Assembly: GCA_913064955.1 (NCBI GenBank)
Contig: CAJYBK010000002.1
Span: 1-40,011, forward strand
DNA: 40,011 nucleotides
Source of the DNA: an uncultured Flavobacteriales bacterium
Lineage (GTDB): Bacteria > Bacteroidota > Bacteroidia > Flavobacteriales_D > Parvicellaceae
Direction of reading: 5' to 3'
Shown: positions 1-2,875 of the stretch, piece after piece
Layout: every line of letters starts with the position of its first letter
How positions within the stretch are numbered: position 1 is the first letter of the stretch
The notes under the pieces: generated by a model
Database searches by the model: none
What the model saw: only the letters and a program-made list of their open reading frames with translations
What the model was told of the DNA's origin: nothing
Made by a program: the position numbers and the translations under genes

Positions 1-1437
1 ATTACACTTACTGCAGATGATGGTAACGATAATACTTCTACTTGTACCTTTGATGTGATATTGTCAGATGTTACTCCACCAACTATGGTATGTCAAGATA
101 TTACAGTTTATTTGGATGCTGCAGGTAACGCTACTATTGCTGATAGTGATTTAGATAATGGTTCAACTGATAACTGTGGCGCTATTACTTTTACTGCTTC
201 TCAAACTGCTTTTACTTGTGCAGACATTGCTGTCCCACCTAGCGTTACACTTACAGGTGAAGATGCTAATGGTAACACTGCTAACTGTTCTAGTACCGTT
301 ACAGTTTTCGACACGTTAGTGCCAGTACCTGATGTGGCTTCATTGCCTGCACTTACTGCAGAATGTTCGCTTACTGCTGTTGCTCCTACTGCTACTGATA
401 ACTGTGGTGGAACGATTACAGCCACTACAACTGATCCTTTAGTTTATAATACACAAGGTTCATTTACTATTACCTGGACTTACACTGATGCTAGCAGTAA
501 TACTACCACTCAAACACAGTCGGTTGTTATTGATGATGTGACTGATCCTGTTATTGTTTGTGGTGGGAATATAACTGAAAGCCCTGATGCATCTTGTCAA
601 TTTACTTTGATTGATTATACTGGTAATACAACAACACTGACAGATAACTGTGGTGGAACACCGACTGTTACTCAATCGCCTATTATGGGGACTGTAATAA
701 CAGATACTACTACTATTACACTTACTGCTGATGATGGCAACGGCAATACTTCTACTTGTACGTTTGATGTCTTGTTTGTAGACAATACGGCACCAACTAT
801 GGTGTGTCAAGACATTACAGTTTATTTGGATGCTGCAGGTAATGCTACTATTGCTGATAGTGATTTAGATAATGGGTCTACTGATAACTGTAGTGCCATT
901 ACTTTTACTGCTTCTCAAACTGCTTTTACTTGTGCAGATATTGCTGTCCCTCCTAGCGTTACACTTACAGGTGAAGATGCTAATGGTAACACTGCTAACT
1001 GTTCTAGTACCGTTACAGTTTTCGACACTGTAGTGCCAGTACCTGATGTGGCTTCTCTACCTGCTTTGACTGCAGAATGTTCGCTTACTGCTGTTGCTCC
1101 TACTGCTACTGATAACTGTGGTGGAACGATTACAGCCACTACAACTGATCCTTTAGTTTATAATACACAAGGTTCCTATACTATTACTTGGACTTATACG
1201 GATGCGAGTAGTAATACTACTACTCAAACGCAGTCGGTAACTATTGATGATATAACAGCACCAGCCATTACTTGTGGTGGTAACATTACTGTAAATCCAA
1301 CTGCATCTTGTGACTTTACTTTAATTGATTACACTGGTAATACAACTACACTTACTGATAACTGTGGTGGCACACCAACTGTTACTCAATCGCCAATTGT
1401 GGGGACTGTAATAACAGATACTACAACAATTACACTT
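1..1437 (+). repeat. 714-base tandem repeat, two full units plus 9 bases
   Basis: Position 1 aligns with 715, and 82 aligns with 796, giving a period of exactly 714 bases (238 codons). Unit one is 1-714 and unit two is 715-1428. A third unit starts at 1429 and is lost after its first 9 bases (ATTACACTT). The copies differ mainly at synonymous positions, so the array is recent or kept uniform by recombination. Confidence 0.85.
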
Positions 1438-1650
1438 TCCACTCATAACACTGCCTACGATACCGTTTCTCGTACGTGTGGTTTATACGTTGTCTCTTCT
1501 GCTCCACCAAGTTTTTTTTCTTTTTTAGTTTTAGTGAATTCTTTCCATTGGTACATTTCTACCTTACGCTTGAGTTTAAGTGCGTTTACTTCAATTCCAA
1601 ATTCTTCGTCTGACAGGATTTCATCCGAAGACGCCTCTCCACACGCATAG
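1..1650 (+). CDS. HYR-repeat surface protein, interior fragment, interrupted near its 3' end
   Basis: The frame is open from the first base, so the true start lies outside the window. The translation is a chain of immunoglobulin-like HYR modules of about 75-83 residues, recognisable from recurring TDNCG, GxxTITWTYTDAS and DxxGNTxxC motifs. Three module types alternate to make a 238-residue unit that is repeated twice almost identically. Proteins of this kind in Bacteroidota are very long secreted adhesins, often ending in a type IX sorting domain, but neither the start nor a sorting domain is visible here. HYR homology stops at about base 1437. The remaining codons to the stop at 1648-1650 are only the antisense of the TMEM43-like gene and are unlikely to be real protein. 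I take this as an interrupted or misjoined gene rather than a natural C-terminus. Confidence 0.75.
   Translation: MTLTADDGNDNTSTCTFDVILSDVTPPTMVCQDITVYLDAAGNATIADSDLDNGSTDNCGAITFTASQTAFTCADIAVPPSVTLTGEDANGNTANCSSTVTVFDTLVPVPDVASLPALTAECSLTAVAPTATDNCGGTITATTTDPLVYNTQGSFTITWTYTDASSNTTTQTQSVVIDDVTDPVIVCGGNITESPDASCQFTLIDYTGNTTTLTDNCGGTPTVTQSPIMGTVITDTTTITLTADDGNGNTSTCTFDVLFVDNTAPTMVCQDITVYLDAAGNATIADSDLDNGSTDNCSAITFTASQTAFTCADIAVPPSVTLTGEDANGNTANCSSTVTVFDTVVPVPDVASLPALTAECSLTAVAPTATDNCGGTITATTTDPLVYNTQGSYTITWTYTDASSNTTTQTQSVTIDDITAPAITCGGNITVNPTASCDFTLIDYTGNTTTLTDNCGGTPTVTQSPIVGTVITDTTTITLSTHNTAYDTVSRTCGLYVVSSAPPSFFSFLVLVNSFHWYISTLRLSLSAFTSIPNSSSDRISSEDASPHA
1438..1481. other. 44-base junction segment of unknown origin
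   Basis: This stretch lies where HYR-repeat homology ends and before TMEM43-like coding begins on the other strand. By my count it is about 50% GC, clearly higher than its flanks, and it fits neither protein family. It could be an assembly join, an adapter remnant or the footprint of a rearrangement. I do not recognise it. Confidence 0.5.
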
Positions 1651-1913
1651 ACCAAATGATCTTCATTTACGTCATCAATGTTTTTATAGTCGATTTTTTT
1701 GTATTCAGCAAGTCCTTCTTCAAGTCCTTTCGCTGTCCTTACTGCTCTACCTTCATTAAACCAAAGCACTGCAAATGCCCCGGCAAATATTAGAAAGCCA
1801 AAAAACATTCCCCCTACAGAGCCACTTAGTTTAGAGCCTAATCCTTGTCTTGTTACTTCTCTGTATGAATGCTTTCCTGTTCTTCCTGAAACATTTCGAT
1901 TAAACCAACTCAT
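1455..1913 (-). pseudogene. TMEM43-family membrane protein, N-terminal fragment
   Basis: The 152-residue product begins MSWFNRNVSGRTGKHSY and has a hydrophobic segment at about residues 33-50 (GGMFFGFLIFAGAFAVLWF) followed by NEGRAVRTAKGLEEG. This matches the start of bacterial TMEM43-family proteins. Full-length members are usually well over 250 residues with further membrane segments at the C-terminus. Here the family-like sequence ends after GGAEETTYK at about base 1482, and eight unrelated residues precede a TAG. The gene is therefore truncated at the junction with the HYR array. It lies 65 bases downstream of the Ppx/GppA gene on the same strand and may share its transcript. Family assignment is from recalled motifs. 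Function in bacteria is unknown. Confidence 0.65.
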
Positions 1914-1978: not shown

Positions 1979-2875
1979 TTAAATTTTGTCTGCTTTAATT
2001 TCTTGATACAATTTGTAGATGATTCCGTCACTTAAACCAACCTTGGGAACCATCATTTCTTTTGAATTTGCAGCTTTCATAAAAGTGGTGTAAATCTTTC
2101 CTGCTGGTACAATTACATCCGCTCTATCGGGTTTTAGTTTTAGCTTTCTGATTCTATCTTCATAACTAAAACTCTCTATGTGTCTGACGATTTTTTTTAT
2201 CTCTCTTAATTTGATTTTTGCGCCAAAACTATGCGGACTTTCTTTGTAAATTCTATTGATATTTCCCCCAGTACCAATGGCTATCACATCTTGTTCGTCC
2301 TGCACCATATCTCGGATTACTTTGTATGCAGCCTTCCATTCCGAAATGGAAATGTCTGTTTTAAGCAATCTAACAGAACCTAATTTAAATGAATGTGATT
2401 GGACTCTTTCATTCTTTTTGATAAGCGTTACTTCAGTACTTCCTCCTCCTACGTCTATGTATAGGTAGGTTTGATCCTTTTTGAAGTCAAAGTCTGATGA
2501 GGAGAAATTCCCAAAAAGCAAATCTGCTTCTTCATCACCTGAGATTATGTCTAGACTAACTTTGGACCCTTTTTTTATCAACTTTCTTACTTCAGCACCA
2601 TTGGTAGCTTCGCGCATTGCTGATGTAGCACATCCTCTAAAATTCTCTACGTCATTAGCTTCCATTAAAAGCCTGAATGCTTTCATTACCTTAACTAGTT
2701 TCTTGGCTTTGTTTTCCGAGATTTCTCCAGAAGTAAAAACGTCTTCACCTAACCTTATAGGTACCCTCGTAAGTGAAATTTTCTTGAAGTAAGTTGCCTC
2801 TGTAGAAGTTTCAAATGCTTCTTCGATTAACAGTCTTACCGCATTCGAACCAATATCAATAGCAGCTAGTTTCAT
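1979..2875 (-). CDS. Ppx/GppA family phosphatase (exopolyphosphatase-like)
   Basis: The 298-residue protein has the actin-like ATPase fold signatures of the exopolyphosphatase / guanosine pentaphosphate phosphatase family. They are AAIDIGSNAVRLLI at residues 4-17 (phosphate 1 loop), CATSAMREATNG near residue 103, YIDVGGGSTEVTLI near 138-151 (phosphate 2 loop) and AIGTGGNINRI near 200. Members hydrolyse inorganic polyphosphate or pppGpp in the cytoplasm. The length covers only the two core subdomains and lacks the C-terminal helical domain of E. coli Ppx, which is the normal short form. A TATCTTTG element lies about 20 bases upstream. The sequence does not show which substrate is used. Confidence 0.9.
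   Translation of the reverse strand: MKLAAIDIGSNAVRLLIEEAFETSTEATYFKKISLTRVPIRLGEDVFTSGEISENKAKKLVKVMKAFRLLMEANDVENFRGCATSAMREATNGAEVRKLIKKGSKVSLDIISGDEEADLLFGNFSSSDFDFKKDQTYLYIDVGGGSTEVTLIKKNERVQSHSFKLGSVRLLKTDISISEWKAAYKVIRDMVQDEQDVIAIGTGGNINRIYKESPHSFGAKIKLREIKKIVRHIESFSYEDRIRKLKLKPDRADVIVPAGKIYTTFMKAANSKEMMVPKVGLSDGIIYKLYQEIKADKI

Follow-up and report, generated by a model that had tools for sequence, protein, structure and literature searches.

The start of the analysed DNA raises the question of whether two unrelated genes, an HYR-repeat gene and a TMEM43-family gene which run into each other tail to tail, were broken by a genuine rearrangement or were brought together by the assembly. 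The window, i.e., the whole stretch of DNA under analysis, is the entire contig C2 (40,011 bases); the draft genome to which it belongs amounts to 3.45 Mb, is divided into 372 contigs and has an estimated completeness of 97.8% and an estimated contamination of 2.19%. Window position 1 therefore coincides with the end of a contig. The contigs sampled from this genome came in falling order of length from 63.8 kb down to 2.07 kb, and these sizes suggest a fragmented assembly with a contig cut-off near 2 kb. The features discussed below are collected in Table 1.

Table 1. Features on both sides of the junction and on the contig with the second TMEM43 piece (positions refer to the window unless a contig is named)
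Feature	Position	Strand	Basis
HYR / HYR_4C repeat gene fragment	1..1437	+	Pfam HYR and HYR_4C; 714-bp spacing; contig start at 1
Junction part fitting neither partner	1438..1462	.	HYR in register 8/22 (1438-1459); nothing like TMEM43
Short stretch like both partners	1460..1482	.	HYR in register 16/23; minus-strand shifted frame with TMEM43 T-Y-E-K
TMEM43-family gene, N-terminal part through GGAEETTY	1483..1913	-	Similarity to full-length relatives, alignment
ppx (Ppx/GppA phosphatase)	1979..2875	-	Pfam Ppx-GppA; upstream neighbor of TMEM43 as in G001 and G002
TMEM43 C-terminal part	G000:C278:3374-3916	-	Pfam TMEM43 positions 112-250; alignment with relatives

The gene fragments and the bases between them

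The Pfam profiles HYR (48.4 bits) and HYR_4C (52.3 bits) both scored over their cut-offs in the fragment at the contig start, which is organized as a compound repeat with a period of 714 bp and comprises exactly two units plus 9 bases; Tandem Repeats Finder, whose longest period is 500, missed this repeat. The likeness to the preceding unit ended after ATTACACTT at position 1437, in agreement with the initial observation that the HYR homology breaks off 9 bases into a third unit. The frame is open at the contig start, and neither a start nor a T9SS sorting domain was found before the join, so that the fragment does not have the secretion and sorting ends of a complete gene. The open frames of HYR genes in relatives span about 750 to 3,789 aa, and several of their arrays are situated at contig edges too (from base 1 in G040:C121 and from base 39 in G041:C14). 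Clear DNA similarity to the fragment (121 bases, 86%) was otherwise confined, within the bin, to C319, where an HYR array also runs from base 1 and the first base falls mid-unit; this contig probably carries upstream sequence of the same HYR gene or of a sister gene. No other strong match, as would be expected of the downstream half, was found in the own genome. C319 consists of one open frame throughout (L013 1-3151; 1,050 aa) that passes into HYR units, and its protein had no close match among the three other genomes of the genus.

On the opposite strand, the N-terminal ~143 residues of a member of the TMEM43 family are encoded next to ppx between 1913 and about 1483, with 42-48% identity to the full-length relatives (48% to the TMEM43 of G001), and this part alone gave no Pfam TMEM43 match. 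The open reading frame (1455-1913, minus strand) ends in GGAEETTYKPHVRETVS, followed by a stop. The first-pass annotation had the TMEM43-like coding stop at about 1482 after GGAEETTYK: the clear in-frame homology to full-length relatives indeed ended about there, but the homology probably continues past this point in a shifted frame. On the plus strand, the HYR frame stays open across the junction and proceeds through ~70 codons antisense to TMEM43, resulting in a spurious 549-aa ORF (1-1650), which might be accepted by gene callers.

The 45 bases in between (1438-1482) had a GC content of 49% against 34.6% for the contig, which bears out the earlier remark on an AT-richer background, the difference being unusual and not extreme (2.9% of the 45-base windows were as GC-rich). 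The tail-to-tail layout with an odd stretch of this size was also confirmed, but the description of 44 bases that fit neither partner was overstated, because part of them resembles both shifted-frame TMEM43 and the HYR unit in register; what fits neither is the stretch from 1438 to about 1459/1462 (~22-25 bases). In the relatives, a strongly conserved Y-x-Y-x-x-x-W motif, often in the form YSYEKxW, comes after GG-x-E-E-T, and the shifted minus-strand frame of the junction reads INHTYEKRY against the family TYSYEKxW (profile score 13.0 bits; P = 0.0065, 20,000 shuffles). Judging from this resemblance, about 20 junction bases are probably frameshifted TMEM43 with the T-Y-E-K of the conserved motif. 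Compared with the HYR unit in register, 24 of the 45 bases were identical, the better matching part (1460-1482) including ATAC and GTACGT; this was the best of 1,393 same-strand HYR positions, five others of which reached 23. We infer that 1460-1482 is a short similarity common to both sequences, where a false overlap or a chimeric read could form.

No second copy of the junction bases was present in the own genome within 3 mismatches; a 22-base core had no match among 84,980 collected genomes, nor had an 18-base core among 2.9 million viral contigs, and both of these searches may have excluded records from the genome of the window. A foreign insert as the source of the junction was rejected on account of these absences.

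The second TMEM43 piece and the locus in relatives

Within the own genome, the Pfam TMEM43 profile matched only once, on contig C278, with a score of 150 bits (cut-off 23.3), and the open frame concerned reaches the last base, 3916, of this 3,916-base contig. In the alignment with full-length proteins of three relatives, the pieces on C2 and C278 were complementary and non-overlapping, with ~60 residues missing between them. The gene order in a member of the same genus represented by a single contig (G001) is ppx, TMEM43 (390 aa), a TPR protein on the opposite strand, SSB, SSB and TlpA-like, and the order on C278, starting from the TMEM43 C-terminal part and continuing with a TPR protein, SSB, SSB and TlpA-like, matched it together with the orientation (the TPR and TMEM43 names were taken from Pfam, and SSB and TlpA-like from reading the sequences). 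The comparison of the ppx-TMEM43 neighborhood proposed in the first-pass annotation thus recovered the G001 gene order across the two contigs, which, on the sequence evidence, very probably adjoin through TMEM43. Because the C-terminal half is found on C278 with G001-like downstream genes and the pieces are complementary, in the organism itself the gene is very probably whole, and its earlier description as truncated very probably wrong.

The open frames of TMEM43 in the three relatives carrying the gene had 390-412 residues, and the 80 top-ranking loci of other genomes in the collection matched over essentially the whole query; no relative with the same short gene was found among them. The possibility of a naturally short TMEM43 was rejected, since the relatives carry full-length genes.

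Two tandem SSB-like genes (111 and 112 aa; L012 1333-2063) are located beyond TMEM43 and the TPR protein, and G001 likewise has two SSB-like genes at the locus, with an extra ORF between them. In G002 (L015 2-6134), the gene facing TMEM43 belongs to an operon of PKD/CHU_C, PorP/SprF and OmpA-family genes instead of the TPR-SSB-SSB-TlpA block. The region downstream of TMEM43 is variable, G002 differing from both G001 and the window's genome. An HYR gene beside TMEM43 was not found at any of the intact relative loci examined, the neighbor being the TPR protein in G001 and the operon without HYR in G002.

Origin of the junction

An assembly misjoin at the contig end is the highly likely source of the HYR-TMEM43 junction. 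The join lies in a 714-bp repeat and near the contig end at position 1, the displaced half of the gene is situated at the edge of another contig with its expected neighbors, and the downstream genes follow the order of the single-contig relative, which supports the suggestion made at first reading that the repeat caused a misjoin. The metaMIC paper (PMC9661791) describes repeats as the main contributor to misassemblies. The organism would then have an intact locus with the order ppx-TMEM43-(TPR protein)-SSB-SSB-TlpA-like, and the assembly would have broken inside TMEM43, leaving the N-terminal part to C2 and the C-terminal part to C278, while the ~60 codons between them either remained unassembled or ended up in a piece under the contig cut-off of ~2 kb. 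Two units of a long HYR-repeat gene unconnected with this locus would subsequently have been fused to the open end of C2, with the similarity at 1460-1482 (GTACGT core) acting as a false overlap and error-rich bases making up the rest of the junction. No DNA molecule carrying the HYR-TMEM43 join would, in that case, exist. What counts against a misjoin is that a plain one at a shared k-mer should not leave ~22 bases fitting neither partner.

The same bases are what a real rearrangement can draw upon. An inversion or insertion between the HYR repeat and TMEM43 would have broken both genes by illegitimate joining at GTACGT with a few added bases, and the sequence is continuous as given, the GC-rich bases are like filler DNA at an end-joining junction, and the similarity at 1460-1482 is common to both partners. 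Between the end of C278 and the junction ~180 bp are missing, so that C278 does not by itself contradict such an event. It is nevertheless unlikely: the C-terminal half on C278 keeps the ancestral downstream genes and ends at a contig edge and not at a new junction, the join is less than 1.5 kb from the contig end and within a repeat, a setting in which misassembly is to be expected, and no relative examined shows it. In its most specific form, with part of the cell population carrying an inversion or insertion between TMEM43 and an HYR adhesin repeat that was sealed by ~22 bases of untemplated filler, it is likewise quite improbable.

Very unlikely is a mixture of strains, in which a minority strain carries the HYR-TMEM43 arrangement and the bin holds C2 from one strain and C278 from the other. 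A draft bin with some estimated contamination and the different TMEM43 neighbors of the two congeners are in line with this, but no second copy of the TMEM43 N-terminal part was found in the bin, the neighbor in G002 has PKD and CHU_C and no HYR domain, and the HYR sequence ends mid-unit; the conserved arrangement on C278 makes both a rearrangement and a strain variant unnecessary. Leftover adapter, linker or barcode sequence between two fragments would fit with a GC content unlike the contig and a sequence unique in the genome but is scarcely credible, as the longest run shared with 21 common adapters or linkers, searched for as the first-pass annotation had proposed, was 7 bases, the level of shuffled sequence, the 22-base core was in no other genome of the collection, and part of the stretch resembles TMEM43 and HYR.

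Annotation and comparison with known systems

The consequences chiefly concern the annotation: the initial 1.48 kb of C2 should not serve as genomic context, TMEM43 should not be listed as a pseudogene in this genome, and the 549-aa ORF made up of HYR and antisense-TMEM43 sequence does not merit deposition as a protein. The case also illustrates that HYR arrays are sites of breakage in draft assemblies of Bacteroidota.

In comparison with the TMEM43 family (Pfam PF07787), both pieces are clearly members and the gene adjoins ppx as in G001 and G002; the protein has about 390-400 residues in congeners, while here it is split over two contigs with ~60 residues missing. With the HYR / HYR_4C repeat proteins of Bacteroidota (PF02494, PF23237) the fragment has in common the alternating HYR-type domains and the compound repeat, but it is represented by two units only, with both gene ends missing. 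As in repeat-associated (meta)genome misassemblies, two unrelated loci are fused within a repeat close to the end of a contig and the displaced gene half is left on another contig edge; in contrast to a simple shared-k-mer misjoin, the junction here contains ~22 bases fitting neither partner.
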